From: Nitrososphaerota archaeon
GTDB taxonomy: Archaea; Thermoproteota; Nitrososphaeria; Nitrososphaerales; Nitrosopumilaceae
Assembly: GCA_028867275.1 (NCBI GenBank)
Contig: JAGWGU010000014.1
Span: forward strand, 1 to 34,665
Reading direction: 5' to 3'
Length of the DNA: 34,665 nucleotides
Below are positions 3,501 to 10,771 of the stretch, in pieces (positions within the stretch are counted from its first letter, which is position 1; each line of letters starts with the position of its first letter). Position numbers and translations under genes: made by a program. Below the pieces are notes generated by a model. It searched no databases, had not been told where the DNA came from, and was given only the letters and a program-made list of their open reading frames with translations.

Positions 3501-4739
3501 TCATTCTCTTCTTAATGCAACCATTGGAGATAGTTTTGATGCCTTCCATGCAGGGTACATTCCAGCTATAACACTTAGTGTTAGAGAAAGCATCCAAACC
3601 TTAAGCAAATCCATAGGAACAAAGATTGGAGGTATGTGTACAGATGGGCCACCTCCCCCAATAGTAGTAGTTGTGACAATACTCATGATATAACCTCCAC
3701 CAATACCTATGATCAGTCCTAATGAAGCTCCCAGTACTCCGATCAAGCCAGCTTCTACCAGAAAGAGTGCAAGGATAGTAGTATTTTGTGCGCCAATTGC
3801 TTTCATTGTACCTATTTCCCTAATTCGCTCTGTAACTGAATTGTATAAAGTAGTGACAATACCAACTGCTCCTACAACAAGCGCAATAATTCCAACCATC
3901 AGAATAAAAGCAGCATTTCCACTTGCAGCTTGTTGTCTTACTGCCATAATTGCTTTAGGGGTTGTTGCTCCAAGAGTTTTTCCAAATTGTGATGTAAGTT
4001 CCTGTTGTACTGTATCAACATCATCAGGAGTCGTTGCAGCAACTATTACAGCATCATACTTGTTTAGCTTGTGCAGTAATTCATTGCCTGCATCTAGGTT
4101 AATAATCACTGAACGATCGACCATAGTATTACCAGATGGTTTTAGAATTCCTGAAACTACAAAATTCTTTGTTACGGTTATTGTCTTTCCACTTGCATCT
4201 GCATATGTAGCTGTTGCCTTAATTGTCTGGCCAAGTGTAACAAAAGCATTAGCTGCACCAGGTGGATTTACTATCGTATCACCCAAAATTGCAGAAGACC
4301 GATCGTTGGGTTTCACAGTAGAACCATCAACATATTCAAGATTAGGTAATTCTACAGTCAATTTTGTTGGATCAAGGGAAGTAACAGATGCTCTCTGAGT
4401 GTTTCCTTGAGAATCTAATGATACTGAGCCAGTATATTCTGGTATGACATCGGATATCAGCGGAAGAGACTTCATTTTCCCTATAACAACAGTATTAATT
4501 ATCAAGGCGTTGCTTGCAGATGTATCTCGAAATCCACGTTGTCCGCTGCTTACAAAGATAACATTAGCCGCCAAAGTATTGAATTGTTTTTCCAAAAATG
4601 CAGCCTGACCTGCACTTAGGCCATTCAATATGACAACTAGACTGCTTCCAAGTACAACCATTAGAATCGTAAGAAGTGTCCTAACTTTTCTGTCAACCAG
4701 TGCCTCAAACGATAGTAAAAAAATATCCTTAGGATTCAT
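3501..4739 (-). CDS. ABC transporter permease, MacB/FtsX type
   Basis: About 412 aa from ATG 4739, which follows a GAAGGAAA ribosome-binding sequence; an in-frame ATG at 4763 lies deeper inside the upstream gene and is less likely. One N-terminal membrane helix (TLLTILMVVLGSSLVVILNG) is followed by a long extracytoplasmic domain of about 230 residues (MacB-type periplasmic core domain). A C-terminal FtsX domain then has three further helices, including AFILMVGIIALVVGAVGIV and a glycine-rich IGVLGASLGLIIGIGGGYI. The loop RIREIGTMKAIGA is the conserved coupling segment that contacts the ATPase. It is the last gene of a three-gene operon with the ATPase and the CARDB-like protein. MacB-family systems act on envelope substrates, exporting or releasing lipoproteins, peptides or toxins, more often than importing nutrients. 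Substrate unknown. Confidence 0.92.
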   Translation of the reverse strand: MNPKDIFLLSFEALVDRKVRTLLTILMVVLGSSLVVILNGLSAGQAAFLEKQFNTLAANVIFVSSGQRGFRDTSASNALIINTVVIGKMKSLPLISDVIPEYTGSVSLDSQGNTQRASVTSLDPTKLTVELPNLEYVDGSTVKPNDRSSAILGDTIVNPPGAANAFVTLGQTIKATATYADASGKTITVTKNFVVSGILKPSGNTMVDRSVIINLDAGNELLHKLNKYDAVIVAATTPDDVDTVQQELTSQFGKTLGATTPKAIMAVRQQAASGNAAFILMVGIIALVVGAVGIVTTLYNSVTERIREIGTMKAIGAQNTTILALFLVEAGLIGVLGASLGLIIGIGGGYIMSIVTTTTIGGGGPSVHIPPIFVPMDLLKVWMLSLTLSVIAGMYPAWKASKLSPMVALRRE

Positions 4740-6858
4740 TTTCCTTCTTTTTTGTACCGTCAAATATTGAGACTATATCAGTGTCTCCCTGTGTCAACAA
4801 CTTTAACTTTTTATTTTTGGATTTTTTCTTTTTTATCAAGAATGCAATCAATGCAGCTATTGCAATTGCAGACCCAATGATCACAGGAAGAGGAATCTGA
4901 TCAAAGATTGATGTTTGTTGATTCGCAGTATTGCTAGGTTGTGAACTTCTACCAGAAACACCCACTGTGCTATTTAGGATTACAGTATGAAAGTTCTTTA
5001 GATCATCTGCATATGTGACTTTGAATGCAACCTGATACATTCCAGGCGATAGTGAATTAAGTCCTCTAAGTGGTATACTAATTGGAATTGGGGAATCAGG
5101 CGAGAGATCTCCTATGAATTGTTGTGTAGAGCCTCTCTGTCCGCCACCTTGTCCACTAAATCCTTGGCCACCACGACTTTGTCCACTAAATCCCTGACCA
5201 CTAGCTTGGCCACCAAATCCTTGGCCTCCACGACCTTGGCCACTAAATCCTTGCCCTGATGAACCTTGGTCAGATTGTGAGGATAATTGGGCATTTTGAT
5301 TATTTGTTGAATTTGCAAGTCTTGCAGTTCTCATTGCATCCAATAGTTGGGAAGGCGCAAGCTGTATTGTGGTATACAATCCAGTTGTACTACCCTGATT
5401 AAGCAAATTACCTGCAATATTGGGAGTACCACCTAGTGAGCTTATAGATAGATCATAGATTTGAAGCTTGATATCACCAACTACAAAAGTTCCCAAGGTA
5501 AGAGAGTTTGTTTGCGATTGTCCTTTTGAGACATAATTTGCAGTCAATGTAAAAGAAGCAGGAGTATTGATCAAAGTATTTGCTGCATACACCTTGGTTG
5601 TCAACACTTGCCTATCTCCCGGTTCCATGTTTTGTATTGTCCAAGTGGATGGACCAACAACTGATACAGAGGTTGATTGCGGTACAAGTGAGATCAGAAT
5701 GTTTGACATAGGATTAGTGCTATTGTTTTGAACAGCAAAGTTCAGATCATCCAGTGTTGCGGCAGTAATCACAGGAGTTGTGGTATTTCCAAGATATGAC
5801 AAGTTAAGAGATTGTGGTGGGTTTGGTGCAATAACAAGCCCTGTACTAATTGTAGTAGTTGAGAGTTTACCCCAAGCATTTTGATAATTTATCTGAAGCT
5901 GCACTTCTTGGGTGGAGCCACTTGCAGCAGTACTGGGATAAACTATGGTGCTTATCACTGCTTTTGATTTTGCAGGTATTGTACCCAGGTTGAAAGTGTT
6001 AGGCCCCAGGTTGACAATCTGAGTAGTTGATGATTGTAATACAACAGACCCTCCACTGTTGCTTCCTGTACTGCCTTTAGAATTACCAAGGTTTACGATT
6101 GTTGCTACCACTCCTGTTGCATCAGCAGAACCCTTGTTTTCAATTGCTATTGAGATAGGATTTTTACTTTGAGGAGCAAGATCAGAGGTTATGGTGGATG
6201 CATCCAACACCACCTTTCCTGGAAGAACAAATGGCACATTGAGTAATGCAGAAGTACATTGTTGTCCAACTACTCCAACCTGGACATAATTTGCCACAAC
6301 AGTTGTAGTAAAAGTACCCACTTTGGCTGTTGGTAATACATTTATGTTAAAATACATTGTAAATGACGCGCCAGCTGGGACTTGCCCATAATAGTTTCCC
6401 ACAGCAGGATTATTTGCAACTCTTGTTGCCTGATTATATTTTTGGAGTAATTGTGGGTTCTTACTTTCACCAGTGGGTTCAAATCCTGATGGAAGGTTAA
6501 GAAATGCAGTTACCGAAGTTATTGGAAAGGCTGAATTTCTATTGTTAAACACTACTGCAAAAACAGATGGCCCTTCTCCCGGACCTATCTCCTTTTTGAC
6601 AGGATTACTTGTAACATCCGTGGCAGAAGATGTTCCTTGATCTACCCAATACGAATCAACAACTACAGGACCCGCATAAGTAGCATCTAGTATGGTGGTA
6701 AGAGGTGCAAAACAATCCTGTGTCTGCACCTGTCCATATGCATCAAGAGAAGTAATTGCAGAAGGCGCAAAAAGCATTACAATTAAAATTGGAATTACAA
6801 TTTTTGGCACCATTCTTTTTCCAAAAAATCTTTTAACAAAAACTCTAGTTGAAGACAT
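4729..6858 (-). CDS. Secreted, membrane-anchored CARDB/S-layer-like protein of the ABC operon
   Basis: 709 aa. A basic N-terminus with a hydrophobic stretch (about 17-38) forms a signal peptide or anchor. The body is a series of beta-rich segments with phrases such as ISIAIENKGSADATGVVATI and AAKSKAVISTIVYP, typical of CARDB/COG1361 alternating-beta cell-surface domains. A Gly/Gln/Ser-rich tract occupies about residues 527-577. The C-terminus has one membrane helix (IPLPVIIGSAIAIAALIAFL) and a Lys-rich cytoplasmic tail. The stop overlaps the permease start and the start overlaps the ATPase end, so the three are translationally coupled. Such proteins probably act as the extracellular partner of the MacB-like transporter, for example a substrate-binding or adaptor scaffold at the S-layer (inference). 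Confidence 0.85.
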   Translation of the reverse strand: MSSTRVFVKRFFGKRMVPKIVIPILIVMLFAPSAITSLDAYGQVQTQDCFAPLTTILDATYAGPVVVDSYWVDQGTSSATDVTSNPVKKEIGPGEGPSVFAVVFNNRNSAFPITSVTAFLNLPSGFEPTGESKNPQLLQKYNQATRVANNPAVGNYYGQVPAGASFTMYFNINVLPTAKVGTFTTTVVANYVQVGVVGQQCTSALLNVPFVLPGKVVLDASTITSDLAPQSKNPISIAIENKGSADATGVVATIVNLGNSKGSTGSNSGGSVVLQSSTTQIVNLGPNTFNLGTIPAKSKAVISTIVYPSTAASGSTQEVQLQINYQNAWGKLSTTTISTGLVIAPNPPQSLNLSYLGNTTTPVITAATLDDLNFAVQNNSTNPMSNILISLVPQSTSVSVVGPSTWTIQNMEPGDRQVLTTKVYAANTLINTPASFTLTANYVSKGQSQTNSLTLGTFVVGDIKLQIYDLSISSLGGTPNIAGNLLNQGSTTGLYTTIQLAPSQLLDAMRTARLANSTNNQNAQLSSQSDQGSSGQGFSGQGRGGQGFGGQASGQGFSGQSRGGQGFSGQGGGQRGSTQQFIGDLSPDSPIPISIPLRGLNSLSPGMYQVAFKVTYADDLKNFHTVILNSTVGVSGRSSQPSNTANQQTSIFDQIPLPVIIGSAIAIAALIAFLIKKKKSKNKKLKLLTQGDTDIVSIFDGTKKKENES
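5131..5275 (-). repeat. Gly/Gln/Ser-rich short tandem repeats within the CARDB-like gene
   Basis: On the coding strand, imperfect repeats encode units of the type SGQGFSGQ-GRGGQGFGGQ about five times. At DNA level the top strand repeats blocks such as ccttggccacc and ccactaaatcc. The tract lies between two beta domains and would form a flexible linker outside the cell. Such repeats change copy number easily. Confidence 0.8.
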
Positions 6859-7618
6859 CTTTTTCTATCCTCCCATCTCTTAGTAATATGGATCTATCTG
6901 TAGACTCGGCAAGTTCTGGATTGTGTGTTACCATAATTATTGTACGTTTGAATTTATGTGAAAGCATTTTTAACATGTCAAAGACATCTTCACCGGTTTT
7001 GGTATCCAAGTTACCAGTAGGTTCATCAGCCAAAATTATAGAAGGGTTGTTTATCAAGGAGCGAGCTATTGCAACTCTTTGTTGTTGTCCACCACTAAGG
7101 TTTATTGGTTTTTGATTTTTCTTGTCAGCAATATCAAGTGCTTCCAAGATCTTCATTGCACGTAAATTTGCATCATCACTTGACATACCAGCAATTATTC
7201 CAGGCAGTTTTACATTTTTGTGGACAGAAGTTCTATTAATTAGATTAAACGACTGGAAGATAAATCCAATACGCCTATTTCTCAGGGTAGCAATTTCAGA
7301 ATCATTAAGAGAAAATATGTCTATTCCATCGATGTAGATTTTTCCGCTTGTTGGCCTATCAAGTGCACCAACCATATTTAGAACTGTGGATTTTCCACTG
7401 CCAGATGGTCCTACAACTGATACAAATTCACCCTTTTTGATAGAAAAGCTTACGTTATCCAATGCGACAACCCGCCCTGCAGCAGAATCATAAATTTTAG
7501 AAAGATTCTCCACTCTTAGGGCAAAGGATCTATTATCTACAATTTCATTTTGTGTGTTTTTTTCAACTACCAAGTCTTTTGTCATGTTTTTCAAAATCGA
7601 TCCCTTTTTAGAATTCAT
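6845..7618 (-). CDS. ABC transporter ATP-binding protein, LolD/MacB type
   Basis: 257 aa. A non-conserved N-terminal 35 residues precede a complete nucleotide-binding domain: Walker A GPSGSGKST (about 70-78), Q-loop in FIFQSFNL (about 119-126), signature LSGGQQQRVAIARSL (about 174-188), Walker B IILADEPTGNLD (about 194-205) and the H-loop in MVTHNPELA. The GNLD after Walker B and the overall spacing are characteristic of LolD/MacB/FtsE-type ATPases. It powers the permease encoded two genes downstream. The operon promoter carries the tandem AACATTGTTA-type element at 7723-7745 with a TATA-like stretch at about 7706-7716. This implies a leader of about 65-80 nt, unlike most genes here, which look leaderless. 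A later Met at codon 12 is an alternative start. Confidence 0.95.
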   Translation of the reverse strand: MNSKKGSILKNMTKDLVVEKNTQNEIVDNRSFALRVENLSKIYDSAAGRVVALDNVSFSIKKGEFVSVVGPSGSGKSTVLNMVGALDRPTSGKIYIDGIDIFSLNDSEIATLRNRRIGFIFQSFNLINRTSVHKNVKLPGIIAGMSSDDANLRAMKILEALDIADKKNQKPINLSGGQQQRVAIARSLINNPSIILADEPTGNLDTKTGEDVFDMLKMLSHKFKRTIIMVTHNPELAESTDRSILLRDGRIEKDVFN

Positions 7619-7722
7619 CTATTTCAATTTCATAATCATAAAAAAGATCACCATGTGACCTACATAGGTTTAGAAGGAAAGTCATGATTCTCTTCTTTAT
7701 TTTTAGAATAAAATGCTTATCA

Positions 7723-7745
7723 AACCTTGTTAAGGAACATTGTTA
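7723..7745 (-). promoter_or_regulatory. Tandem operator A (ABC operon)
   Basis: Two direct copies of a 10-bp element, AACCTTGTTA (7723-7732) and AACATTGTTA (7736-7745), are separated by AGG, giving a 13-bp period. Each unit contains a 4-1-4 palindrome core of the type AACA-T-TGTT. The element sits about 7-8 bp upstream, in the direction of transcription, of the TATA-like stretch of the ABC operon. The same arrangement recurs at 9136-9158 and 9780-9802. Confidence 0.7.
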
Positions 7746-7762
7746 GTGAAGTCAGTAATAAT

Positions 7763-7784
7763 TTTCTACTCAAGAAAGTAGAAA
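7763..7784. other. 8-bp hairpin
   Basis: TTTCTACT (7763-7770) and AGTAGAAA (7777-7784) form a perfect inverted repeat around a 6-nt loop. It lies about 40 nt past the stop of the micro zinc-finger gene and just upstream of operator A. It could end the zinc-finger transcript, although no clear T-run follows on that strand, or be part of the ABC promoter region. Confidence 0.35.
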
Positions 7785-7823
7785 CTAGGACCAAAGACAG
7801 GTTGCATTTTGTATCATACATAT

Positions 7824-7988
7824 TCAATAGACTTTGAAGCAGTCTTTGTGGTAATATTTGGGAGGTCTTGCGCCAATTCGCACTACAATATCCCCCTCAA
7901 TCAATTTCACAGTGCATCGTCTACACACATTATTTCCAAGTGAGATTAACCTTGCAACATCTCTTGGCTCTAGTCTAATTTGCATCAT
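7824..7988 (-). CDS. Micro zinc-binding protein, 54 aa (CxxC...HxxC)
   Basis: A short ORF starting with two adjacent ATG codons (7988 and 7985). It encodes a basic protein with Cys22-x2-Cys25 (VCRRC) and His47-x2-Cys50 (YYHKDC), a CX2CX21HX2C pattern that would hold one zinc ion in a treble-clef or LIM-like knuckle. The segment before it (IRLEPRDVARLISLG) looks helical. AT-rich TATA-like stretches lie at about 8001-8028. It stands between the ABC operon and the next minus-strand unit, with a clear coding character and a plausible promoter. Function unknown; small proteins of this type usually bind nucleic acid or proteins. Confidence 0.72.
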   Translation of the reverse strand: MMQIRLEPRDVARLISLGNNVCRRCTVKLIEGDIVVRIGARPPKYYHKDCFKVY

Positions 7989-8077
7989 ACATAATCCTGC
8001 GCTAAAAAATTTGAGTCATATTCTATAAATTTTGATTAAGACATGGTTTTTGCCAAAAAAGTTTGTAGCGCATCACA

Positions 8078-8218
8078 TTAATTTTCCCAATACCATTTCT
8101 GCCTGAATCCATCGTGTTTTGCAGGATGCGCAGCCTTGAAATGTATATCCAACCTCACAGCGTTGTCAAACACCATACCACATTCCTTACATTTGAAATC
8201 TCTTTTTTTATCAAACAA
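8078..8218 (-). CDS. Micro C2H2 zinc-finger protein, 46 aa
   Basis: A TTG-started ORF (8218) overlapping the stop of the upstream membrane-protein gene by 8 nt, with a G-rich GGGGC seven to eleven bases before it. It contains a textbook C2H2 finger, C10-x2-C13-x12-H26-x4-H31, with Phe17 and Leu23 at the usual hydrophobic core positions (CKECGMVFDNAVRLDIHFKAAH region). The C-terminus is short and aromatic (KWYWEN). No ATG or GTG is available in this frame after the preceding in-frame stop, so TTG initiation coupled to the upstream gene is the best reading. Archaeal single-finger proteins of this kind are mostly uncharacterised; DNA, RNA or protein binding are all possible. Confidence 0.75.
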   Translation of the reverse strand: MFDKKRDFKCKECGMVFDNAVRLDIHFKAAHPAKHDGFRQKWYWEN

Positions 8219-8669
8219 ATTCTTTGCCCCAATTTTTCTTTTTATCAAATAGTGATGAGTCAGGTAGTATCTGCTCTTTTTTAAGATCCCTTAACAATAT
8301 GGCAGAAAATGCAATTATTCCCATTTGGACGACTTTAGTAACTATATCAATTGTACCAACATCAGTCTGAATACCAACTACTGGAAGATTGATATTTCTT
8401 GATGCAATGTAAAGTCCTATTAAAAAGACAGACAAAATTATAGATATCACATAAGGGGCTCTACTGTGAAGCCTGTTTTTTAACATCCATATCCCCAAGG
8501 GAATATACACTATACCTGCAGTTGCAAAAAACATTGTTTGGATTTGGGAACCAACATCAGAACTGCCTGCATCAAAGGATTCAGCATATGATGAAATTAG
8601 ATAGATAATTCCACTTAGAGACATGAGCACTGTAACTATTACAATAGATAACCTAGTTGATTTTTTCAT
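8211..8669 (-). CDS. Four-helix membrane protein, unknown function
   Basis: 152 aa with four predicted membrane helices: LSIVIVTVLMSLSGIIYLIS (about 7-28), MFFATAGIVYIPLGIWML (about 46-63), YVISIILSVFLIGLYIAS (about 73-90) and IVTKVVQMGIIAFSAILL (about 109-126). It ends in a charged cytoplasmic tail. No catalytic motif or known family was recognised. The start ATG directly follows the stop of the DUF6659-like gene and the end overlaps the C2H2 micro gene, so the three form one operon under tandem operator B. Confidence 0.82.
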   Translation of the reverse strand: MKKSTRLSIVIVTVLMSLSGIIYLISSYAESFDAGSSDVGSQIQTMFFATAGIVYIPLGIWMLKNRLHSRAPYVISIILSVFLIGLYIASRNINLPVVGIQTDVGTIDIVTKVVQMGIIAFSAILLRDLKKEQILPDSSLFDKKKNWGKEFV

Positions 8670-9098
8670 CTAATCATCTTCTTTTTTATTTAGATTTGTC
8701 TTCAAAACAGATAGTATTAGAAATGGCATTGTAGCAAGATCAATATTTTTTTCAGCAGAAACACATAGGATTTCGTCTTCTAGTGGAAAATTCATGGATA
8801 CTAGTTTATCACCATATGAAATAGTAAAATTCACAGACCCCAACTGTGAATCATGTTCCTTACGCATTCTTATCCCCAATGCAGTCTCCATGAGTAGTAT
8901 TTCCTCATTTCTTGGATCTACAAAAGATCGTATTCCTTTCTTTTTATTTCCAGTAAGCAATTTACCTTTATTGCTTATGATTCCAGCAAATCTGATGTTA
9001 GGATCTAAAGTGAGAATTTCATCACAGACAGATTCCAGTATTTCTTGCGAATATTTTTTGGATTTAGAAATATAAGTTGGCTCCAATTCAATATGCAT
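8670..9098 (-). CDS. DUF6659-like, roadblock-like small protein
   Basis: 142 aa, soluble. The pattern of an N-terminal helix, the block IRFAGIISNKGKLLTG, a middle acidic stretch and the strand pair VNFTISYGDKLVSMNFPL resembles the abundant thaumarchaeal DUF6659 family. That family looks like a roadblock/LC7 or profilin-like alpha/beta fold (fold assignment is my inference). Many copies usually occur per genome, often near regulators, and none is functionally defined to my knowledge. It is the first gene of an operon with the four-helix membrane protein and the C2H2 micro protein. A TATA-like GTTTTATTC at about 9118-9127, some 24 nt from the ATG, supports leaderless expression. The tandem operator lies just upstream. 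Confidence 0.8.
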   Translation of the reverse strand: MHIELEPTYISKSKKYSQEILESVCDEILTLDPNIRFAGIISNKGKLLTGNKKKGIRSFVDPRNEEILLMETALGIRMRKEHDSQLGSVNFTISYGDKLVSMNFPLEDEILCVSAEKNIDLATMPFLILSVLKTNLNKKEDD

Positions 9099-9135
9099 AT
9101 TTTTTTACCAATTAGTTTGAATAAAACGATTATCT

Positions 9136-9158
9136 AACATTGTTAAAGAACATTGTTA
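9136..9158 (-). promoter_or_regulatory. Tandem operator B (DUF6659-like operon)
   Basis: A perfect direct repeat: AACATTGTTA at 9136-9145 and again at 9149-9158, separated by AAG (13-bp period). It sits about 8 bp upstream of the TATA-like stretch serving the gene that starts at 9098, the same geometry as operators A and C. This is the most regular of the three copies. Confidence 0.78.
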
Positions 9159-9218
9159 GTTGAGTAAGTGTTTTTCTTTTTTGAGAAGGATTAAACAAAA
9201 AGGAAGAAAAGTTTTGGA

Positions 9219-9740
9219 TCAGGATAATGATCCACTGGACGGAGTTGTGCTTCCAGGTGCAGATGGAGATGAGTTTTGAGGATTACCACCTATATGGAAT
9301 CGATGTTTCATCGTCCCATGTTGGCCGCCCATTGCAAAACTGCCCATTCCAAATCCTCCCAACTGGAAGGAATGTCCTGGAGAGGTATACAGTACTGTGC
9401 CATTGGCTGGATCGACAATCACGGAATATACCATGTTCTTGTCATCAATGACCTTGAAACTGTATACAACAAATCCTTGTACAACAGTCAGGCTTCCACC
9501 TATTGTTTTTCCATTGGTTACTGCTGATGCAGCAGTATCAGATGCTGTAGAGAATTTTGTCTGTACGTTAGACATTATTGTCTGCTGAAGATTGATGGAA
9601 CCTTGTATTGTTGGAGGTTGCTGACTTTGTGTTCCTTGAACTTGTGCAGATGCTACTGACACTCCTGCTGTAGCAATGATTGCCACACCAATTATGATGG
9701 CAAGCACCTTTTGGTTCGTGGTGAAGTTTTTTGCGTTCAT
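9219..9740 (-). CDS. Secreted PepSY-like protein
   Basis: 173 aa. The signal peptide is clear: a basic start, then VLAIIIGVAIIATAGVSVASAQV with an Ala-x-Ala cleavage site near residue 32. The mature part has a helical segment followed by GGSLTVVQGFVVYSFKVIDDKNMVYSVIVDPANGTVLYTSPG. This is the beta-hairpin pattern of PepSY-type domains, which bind and inhibit proteases or act as small envelope modules. The tail is rich in Gly, Met, His, Ser, Pro and Thr; the His/Met residues could bind metal (inference). A TATA-like TTTATTAAAT at about 9762-9771 lies about 26 nt from the ATG, and tandem operator C lies directly upstream. It is divergent from the winged-helix gene. Confidence 0.82.
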   Translation of the reverse strand: MNAKNFTTNQKVLAIIIGVAIIATAGVSVASAQVQGTQSQQPPTIQGSINLQQTIMSNVQTKFSTASDTAASAVTNGKTIGGSLTVVQGFVVYSFKVIDDKNMVYSVIVDPANGTVLYTSPGHSFQLGGFGMGSFAMGGQHGTMKHRFHIGGNPQNSSPSAPGSTTPSSGSLS

Positions 9741-9779
9741 TATTCATCAGTACACCAGTTATTTAATAAAAAATTGCTA

Positions 9780-9802
9780 AACTATGTCAGTGAACATTGT
9801 TA
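9780..9802 (-). promoter_or_regulatory. Tandem operator C (PepSY-like gene / winged-helix divergent region)
   Basis: AACTATGTCA (9780-9789) and AACATTGTTA (9793-9802) are separated by GTG, again with a 13-bp period. It lies about 8 bp upstream of the TATA-like stretch of the PepSY-like gene and about 75 bp from the divergent winged-helix start, so it could serve both directions. The first half-site is the most degenerate of the six. Confidence 0.68.
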
Positions 9803-9876: not shown

Positions 9877-10203
9877 TTGCACGGCAGAACAATAATCTTG
9901 TCGCATGAATACAGAGACCGAGTCTACATCAGAAAAGACATCATATTAAAATTAACAGAACACGGCGAACTCAATCAAACATCACTTCTCAGTTATTGCG
10001 GTTTGAATTTAATGAAGCATAAAGACATTCTAGAGAGTTTAGAGAGAAAAGGTTTCATAAACAGAACAGAGCAGGCATGGGGAAACAAGAAGATAATAAA
10101 ATACGCAGTGACACAGAAAGGACGAGAATTTTGTAAAATGATTTTAGAACCATATGAAGATATATTTCCTAGGAGTGAAAAACGTGATCAAGAACAAAGT
10201 TAG
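9877..10203 (+). CDS. Winged-helix DNA-binding protein
   Basis: 108 aa. A winged helix-turn-helix is visible: KDIILKLTEHGELNQTSLLSYCGLNLMKHKDILESLERKGFINR (about 20-63) gives three helices, followed by a wing with strands around KKIIKYAVTQKGREF. The C-terminal helix is charged. This resembles archaeal PadR/ArsR-like small regulators, often autoregulatory. The reading frame begins with TTG at 9877. A second TTG at 9898 (giving MSHEYRDR) is equally credible because a TATA-like TTAATACAT at about 9865-9873 is about 28 nt before it. It is the nearest regulator to the three tandem operators and the leading candidate to bind them (inference). Confidence 0.85.
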   Translation: MHGRTIILSHEYRDRVYIRKDIILKLTEHGELNQTSLLSYCGLNLMKHKDILESLERKGFINRTEQAWGNKKIIKYAVTQKGREFCKMILEPYEDIFPRSEKRDQEQS

Positions 10204-10240: not shown

Positions 10241-10771
10241 ATGTCAGAGCCAGAGAATAACCCATCAGAAAAGAACGGACCCACAGATGACAAAGATGAG
10301 AAAAAAGAATCTGAAAATATTCTGAAAATTTTAGATGAACTCCTATCCCACACTAACAGTTCACGACGCTTGTTTCTGATTTTTATCACGAGTGCATTAT
10401 TTTTTGGACCAATTGCACTAATACTTGGAGGAGTTTTACTTGAACATCCAGATTATAACATAAGGCACTTGGAACCAAGCGGATACAACTTTGCAGATAT
10501 GCACCGCATTGCCGGAACACATCTTCAGGTTGTAGATCAAAATGGTACAGTAATCAGGGAATTACCAATGATACCAGCGCCTGGAGGAGACAGGTCTCAT
10601 ATAGGGCCCATATTTTTCGGTCTGCGAATATTCATCATAATTTCAATAGTGTTTGCTGCAATATTGCTATTCATTGCAATAAAGGAGTACCGCTTCTTTT
10701 CGCATTGGAACAAGAGATTTAGCAAGTACAAGGCACTAAAAGACAAAGTAGACAAGGAACTTGAAGACTAG
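10241..10771 (+). CDS. Two-helix membrane protein, unknown function
   Basis: 176 aa. An acidic, lysine-rich N-terminal 45 residues are followed by a membrane helix (FLIFITSALFFGPIALILGGVLL, about 46-68), an extracytoplasmic loop of about 55 residues with several His and Pro, a second helix (FIIISIVFAAILLFIAI, about 126-142) and a charged cytoplasmic tail that may be helical. No known domain recognised. It follows the winged-helix gene by 37 nt on the same strand and could be co-transcribed with it. Probably a phylum-restricted protein (inference). Confidence 0.78.
   Translation: MSEPENNPSEKNGPTDDKDEKKESENILKILDELLSHTNSSRRLFLIFITSALFFGPIALILGGVLLEHPDYNIRHLEPSGYNFADMHRIAGTHLQVVDQNGTVIRELPMIPAPGGDRSHIGPIFFGLRIFIIISIVFAAILLFIAIKEYRFFSHWNKRFSKYKALKDKVDKELED

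Follow-up and report, generated by a model that had tools for sequence, protein, structure and literature searches.

In Ca. Nitrosotalea, a set of genes, mostly for secreted or membrane proteins, is preceded in a fixed promoter geometry by the 22-bp inverted repeat AACNNTGTT-N4-AACANNGTT, with (A/C)AA and a TTTAT-like TATA box following it gap-free. The operator is conserved at orthologs, and it is linked to a gene for a winged-helix protein. The window, a stretch of 34,665 nucleotides, carries three such promoters, A, B and C, and belongs to a 1.70-Mb genome (G000) that is 96% complete and has Ca. Nitrosotalea devanaterra (LN890280.1) and N. bavarica among its close relatives. A first reading of the window, made from the sequence alone, had proposed a small, previously undescribed envelope-stress or surface regulon beside the winged-helix gene. 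A genuine regulon with mostly surface or secreted products, linked to this gene, was indeed found. It is larger than proposed, with about nine promoters in the window genome and a core that is conserved across many families of the ammonia-oxidising order, and the conserved unit is the winged-helix gene together with a membrane-protein gene at 10241-10771 that the proposal lacked.

The operator and its promoters

The sequence-only reading rested on paired units at a 13-bp period, and these are present as described: AACCTTGTTAAGGAACATTGTTA at 7723-7745, AACATTGTTAAAGAACATTGTTA at 9136-9158 and AACTATGTCAGTGAACATTGTTA at 9780-9802. It took them for tandem 10-bp units; a direct-repeat reading was rejected on a symmetric mismatch test, in which the half-sites mirror each other. 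The test used the pattern AACAWTGTT-N4-AACAWTGTT, which is symmetric under the direct and the inverted readings and hence unbiased. Mismatches in the left half fell on offset 3 (6) more than on offset 5 (2), and those in the right half on offset 5 (23) more than on offset 3 (1), a left-right difference with Fisher p=2e-4; the mirror match is imperfect at some positions, such as the outermost base. From the inverted symmetry, binding by a dimer would be expected.

The frequency of the operator was assessed by pattern searches across the genome. The exact core AACNNTGTTNNNNAACANNGTT occurs 3 times in the window genome against 0 for the reversed control, and with one mismatch the counts are 10 against 1. 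Across the genus the exact core is found at most three times per genome, while its reversed control gave 0 matches in all 14 of the 14 members drawn. With one mismatch, six related genomes hold 7-18 sites against 1-5 control matches each. The pattern originally proposed, allowed three mismatches, recovers the three window sites and distant sites on other contigs, and its reversed form gives 0. Random frequency, which would have spoken against the regulon, was thus not observed, and the reversed-pattern controls exclude chance or local duplication as the source of the sites. In places a third unit, AAC-N3-GTT, follows at the same 13-bp period (L125:2482-2516 in G042; L128:2512-2546 in G014); the three-unit array of G042 adjoins a different small winged-helix-like ORF, and no close homolog of the window's winged-helix gene was detected there.

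Oriented by the gene that they face, 45 sites align gap-free through a downstream block, (A/C)AA-N3-TTTA(T/A)T, which played no part in site finding and is conserved at AA in 44, at T in 45 and at a further T in 43 of the 45 promoters. Most targets have their start codon 36-41 bp past the operator end, with a mode of 37, the background being about 0.4% for each position and side. The three window sites face minus-strand genes as first reported, with TTTTATT or TTTATT beginning about 8-9 bp beyond the site. The TATA box, assigned by sequence only, is centred about 25 bp ahead of the start codon, a distance that points to leaderless transcripts, on which the operator would span about -59 to -38. 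Such an arrangement implies leaderless promoters with the operator probably just upstream of BRE/TATA, and all 45 gap-free promoters share the placement that characterises archaeal BRE-proximal activators. These typically bind upstream of the BRE and aid recruitment of TBP/TFB (PMC5512572, PMC6737238), so activation is favoured. The TATA-proximal position given by the first reading stands, while its even choice between repression and activation does not, as the fixed spacing upstream of the BRE favours activation.

Operator A (7723..7744, minus strand) matches the exact core, has TTTTATT at the standard offset and faces an ABC operon; its TATA-like box (7708..7713, minus) falls within the gap-free alignment, and the site recurs at the ABC ortholog in four genomes (G035, G006, G014, G015). 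A putative leader ORF of 25 codons (7608..7685, minus), read from the sequence, has its ATG exactly 37 bp from the operator, and its stop overlaps the start of the ABC ATPase gene (ATGAATTCTAA), an arrangement suggestive of translational coupling through a leader peptide. In L116, L127 and L088 the ABC gene has a similar short ORF ahead of it, as found by a regular-expression scan that is incomplete and missed the window's own ORF. The first gene of the operon encodes a LolD/MacB-like ABC ATPase (6845..7618, minus; PF00005, E=8.2e-36), for which LolD/MacB models score below cut-off and no specific equivalog model passes. The operon also holds a MacB/FtsX-type permease (3501..4763, minus), with PF02687 and PF12704. 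All three Pfam families are above cut-off, which bears out the MacB-like ABC operon originally described, and the combination of an ABC ATPase with an FtsX/MacB_PCD permease is that of a MacB/LolCDE-type ABC exporter. The large secreted protein of the operon (4729..6858, minus), an open frame with a signal-like N-terminus and a C-terminal TM segment, had been called a CARDB protein, an identity not supported by Pfam, which returned no match.

Operator B (9136..9157, minus) is likewise an exact core match, with an ATG 37 bp beyond and a TATA-like box at 9121..9126 (minus) in the 45-promoter alignment. It faces the gene of a DUF6659 protein (8670..9098, minus; PF20364, E=1.6e-13), five orthologs of which have the same promoter. 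The target had been described as a membrane-protein operon. A small membrane protein is present (8211..8669, minus; from the ORF list, with sub-threshold Pfam matches only) but as the second gene, after DUF6659. Between operators A and B, on the minus strand of the 7838-8000 region, lies a small conserved ORF (MQIRLEPRDVARL...CRKC...), zinc-ribbon-like, whose relatives occupy the corresponding position in L111, L116, L127 and L193.

Operator C (9780..9801, minus) has one mismatch to the core and a TATA-like box at 9765..9770 (minus), placed by the same alignment. It faces the gene of a secreted, probable PepSY-domain protein (9219..9740, minus), and the winged-helix gene runs divergently from it. 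By itself this protein reaches a PF03413 score of 15.6, below the cut-off of 24 (PepSY profile E=0.02), and its AlphaFold core resembles YpeB/YpmB/Rv0603 with probability 0.84-0.96 and weak E-values.

Beyond the window, the same genome has targets at C30 (another PepSY gene and a secreted protein of PsbP-like type), C68 (the gene of a 95-aa winged-helix protein), C72 (a protein of 76 aa), C43:30358 (a large surface protein, Ig-like/MG2) and C9 (a small membrane protein); a weak site within a coding region (C43:73340) is probably due to chance. The same promoter is kept at orthologs in N. devanaterra, N. bavarica and others, and conservation upstream of orthologs, whose failure would have counted against the regulon, accordingly holds. 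The targets are mostly secreted or membrane proteins, the multicopy PepSY family being the commonest with 22 proteins, which form the loosest cluster, with some links distant or low-complexity. The PepSY profile (PF03413) matches 18 of the 19 clustered proteins that were aligned, at best with 2.6e-7.

The winged-helix gene and its membrane partner

The likely regulator is the winged-helix protein encoded at 9898..10203 on the plus strand (PF14947, E=2.1e-7), which AlphaFold models as a winged helix with pLDDT 87. Its start is probably the TTG at 9898 rather than 9877, because conservation begins at SHEYRD. It scores 31.3 bits for HTH_45 (PF14947), above the cut-off of 25.5, and its many fold matches include MarR, PadR (a single structure) and Sso10a relatives. 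The recognition region CGLN-x-x-KHK and the C-terminal PYE-x-x-FPR are nearly invariant across the order. In about 30-35 loci a site lies about 90-130 bp ahead of the winged-helix frame (operator C at about -98), and the divergent target varies, being PepSY, DUF6659 or ABC. The gene's own promoter shows no site at the 37-bp position in Nitrosotalea, and the gene was not detected in two site-bearing Nitrosotalea genomes that are 78% and 84% complete (G002 and G029). A paralogous winged-helix gene (G000:C55:1170-1469), with orthologs throughout Nitrosopumilaceae, faces a convergent membrane-protein homolog on the opposite strand and forms a sister module.

Adjoining the winged-helix gene is that of a two-TM protein (10241..10771, plus), recognised by two hydrophobic segments and a family alignment, and this pair is kept in nearly all loci examined. 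No Pfam family was assigned to the partner; matches to SHOCT and EMC3_TMCO1 were weak and scattered and were left unused. Conserved cytoplasmic segments, ENIF-x-ILD...TKK and WNKRY...KIDKEL, stand on either side of a loop that ranges from a few to more than 150 residues. Homologs whose chosen frame contained a stop were left out of the protein alignments. The membrane family is present in 36 of the order's roughly 52 genomes, against 1 of about 248 others sampled in the phylum, and in that lone outlier (G389, 60% GC) the winged-helix gene adjoins as well. Ahead of the partner gene is a half operator, the single unit AACAAAGTT (10193..10201, plus), 39 bp before the ATG and of the form AACMNNGTT with a TATA box. 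This form lies near the same position in 55 of 80 winged-helix/membrane junctions, is kept in a genome of 75% GC (L181) and reads AACCTTGTT in G389. Several such pairs per genome are found in Nitrososphaeraceae (G119, G122, G057 and G208, for example), where the outside loops of the partners differ greatly in length, as if different signals were sensed.

The link between site and gene pair extends beyond the genus. A matrix built from 41 Nitrosotalea sites and no others was run, at a threshold of 5 bits, on 47 loci of other genera. It gave 30 matches within 500 bp of the pair against 1 elsewhere in 2.4 times more DNA (72-fold, p=2.5e-15); the matches span several families, and since related loci are not fully independent such p-values are optimistic. 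An ATG stands at 36-39 bp in 22 of the 30, and PepSY proteins are the targets of the sites in L099, L101, L103, L123, L177 and L186. Matches are present in 24 of the 47 loci, and about half of the 47 have no full site at the matrix threshold. In several of the latter a related form, TAACNNTGTTACGT-N-TCA, is seen, a hint that site and winged-helix protein changed together. Exact-core sites are rare outside the genus; in three cases (G053, G079, G140) the winged-helix gene is no more than about 600 bp away, against a chance expectation of about 0.01. The regulatory system looks very old.

Proposed mechanism and its rivals

From the operator, its placement and the gene order, we infer a mechanism that we consider fairly probable. 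The winged-helix protein 9898-10203 would bind the 22-bp palindrome as a dimer and, from about -59 to -38 of leaderless transcripts, would recruit TBP/TFB, activating the genes of secreted PepSY and other envelope proteins. The two-TM protein 10241-10771, whose role as a sensor is suggested by its topology and gene order, would sense an outside or membrane cue through its variable loop, and its conserved cytoplasmic ends would control the winged-helix protein, so transmitting an envelope signal; the half operator ahead of its gene would provide feedback. The wider proposal, of an order-wide dyad of winged-helix activator and two-TM sensor that governs a secreted-protein programme through the 37-bp operator and half-operator feedback, we judge to have an even chance of being right.

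The same protein might instead repress from the palindrome, blocking TFB beside the BRE until released by a ligand or by the membrane partner. Its closest folds are single-winged-helix MarR/PadR proteins, many of which are repressors, and only about 3 bp separate the end of the operator from the conserved (A/C)AA element. Nevertheless, the operator overlaps neither the TATA box nor the start site, its spacing is strict, as contact with TBP/TFB would lead one to expect, while a repressor can work from varied positions, and archaeal sites upstream of the BRE are typically activating (PMC5512572, PMC6737238), which makes repression unlikely, if still worth serious thought. The fixed distance to TATA would also suit a core-promoter element read by one of several TFB proteins, and ammonia-oxidising archaea possess several TFBs, and these change in biofilms (PMC12448741). 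With its 22 bp, however, the inverted repeat far exceeds a BRE in length, and the sites cluster beside the winged-helix gene across families, so that we give this explanation very little credence.

Two further readings, both improbable in our view, place control elsewhere. In one, another winged-helix protein, such as the 95-aa protein of C68, is the main regulator and 9898-10203 a neighbour or co-regulator. Autoregulation is common, and in five Nitrosotalea genomes the C68 gene itself stands exactly 37 bp from an operator; G002 and G029 keep both sites and C68-type genes without a detected homolog of the 9898-10203 gene. Genome distribution disfavours this candidate: sites outside the genus adjoin the 9898-10203 type of gene, no C68-type match was found in genomes such as G048 and G228 and only a distant one in G053, and the recognition helix differs. 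In the other, the trigger is redox: direct oxidation would strike the invariant cysteine 34 of the winged-helix protein, and the membrane protein would have some other role. C34 is invariant in 25 diverse members, the top fold matches include the redox MarR proteins AbfR and SarZ, and OxsR of Haloferax, a single-winged-helix protein with a site upstream of BRE/TATA, needs a conserved cysteine (PMC9426492). That cysteine is reported in the terminal dimer helix (PMC9426492), whereas C34 ends the helix before the recognition helix, and a redox trigger would leave the conserved membrane partner unexplained.

Relation to known systems and significance

The winged-helix protein shares with Sso10a the HTH_45 domain, and Sso10a-2 is among its fold matches. 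It differs in that its C-terminal helix ends in PYE-x-x-FPR, and the NCBIfam Sso10a model scores 29.8 against a cut-off of 60; its appearance is more that of a specific regulator than of a chromatin protein. SurR of Pyrococcus, an ArsR-type activator/repressor with GTT-N3-AAC half-sites, is similar as a winged-helix regulator with GTT/AAC half-sites. The units here are AAC-N3-GTT, 4 bp apart, the protein has no CxxC and the target genes are others. Ptr2, EarA, Tar/TK0271 and OxsR also have their sites directly upstream of BRE/TATA, with TBP/TFB recruitment shown or proposed (PMC5512572, PMC6737238, PMC9426492). The present system differs from them in site sequence and protein subfamily, in its strict 37-bp spacing to predicted leaderless start codons and in its membrane partner gene.

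The closest analogue is the bacterial HAAS-PadR dyad, proposed as an alternative to two-component systems in envelope responses (PMC11237479), in which a stand-alone winged-helix regulator is invariably encoded beside a membrane-linked signalling protein; here the two genes adjoin in nearly all loci and in distant families. The archaeal partner differs in having two TM helices with short conserved cytoplasmic ends, and the promoters are archaeal TATA/BRE promoters with a defined palindrome. A Pfam scan of 30 partner proteins showed no HAAS, DUF1700, DUF1129 or DUF1048-like domain among the families listed, and PadR (PF03551) scores 16.7 against a cut-off of 27 on the winged-helix protein. The pair was not assigned to the HAAS-PadR group, because the HAAS domain was looked for in the partner and not found.

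The open-licence literature searched gave no specific description of the operator motif or of the winged-helix/membrane pair, nor, for ammonia-oxidising archaea, a defined operator with a linked regulator; the control system is provisionally regarded as undescribed to date, as the sequence-only reading had supposed. Ammonia-oxidising archaea drive much of global nitrification. The analysis supplies the operator in precise form and the fixed geometry of its promoters, names candidates for the regulator and its membrane partner, and lists target genes. The regulon predictions are testable in cultured species such as N. viennensis and N. devanaterra, and the operator offers a means to annotate surface-response genes in uncultured relatives. 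If true, the proposed system would represent a new kind of membrane-to-DNA signalling dyad in archaea.
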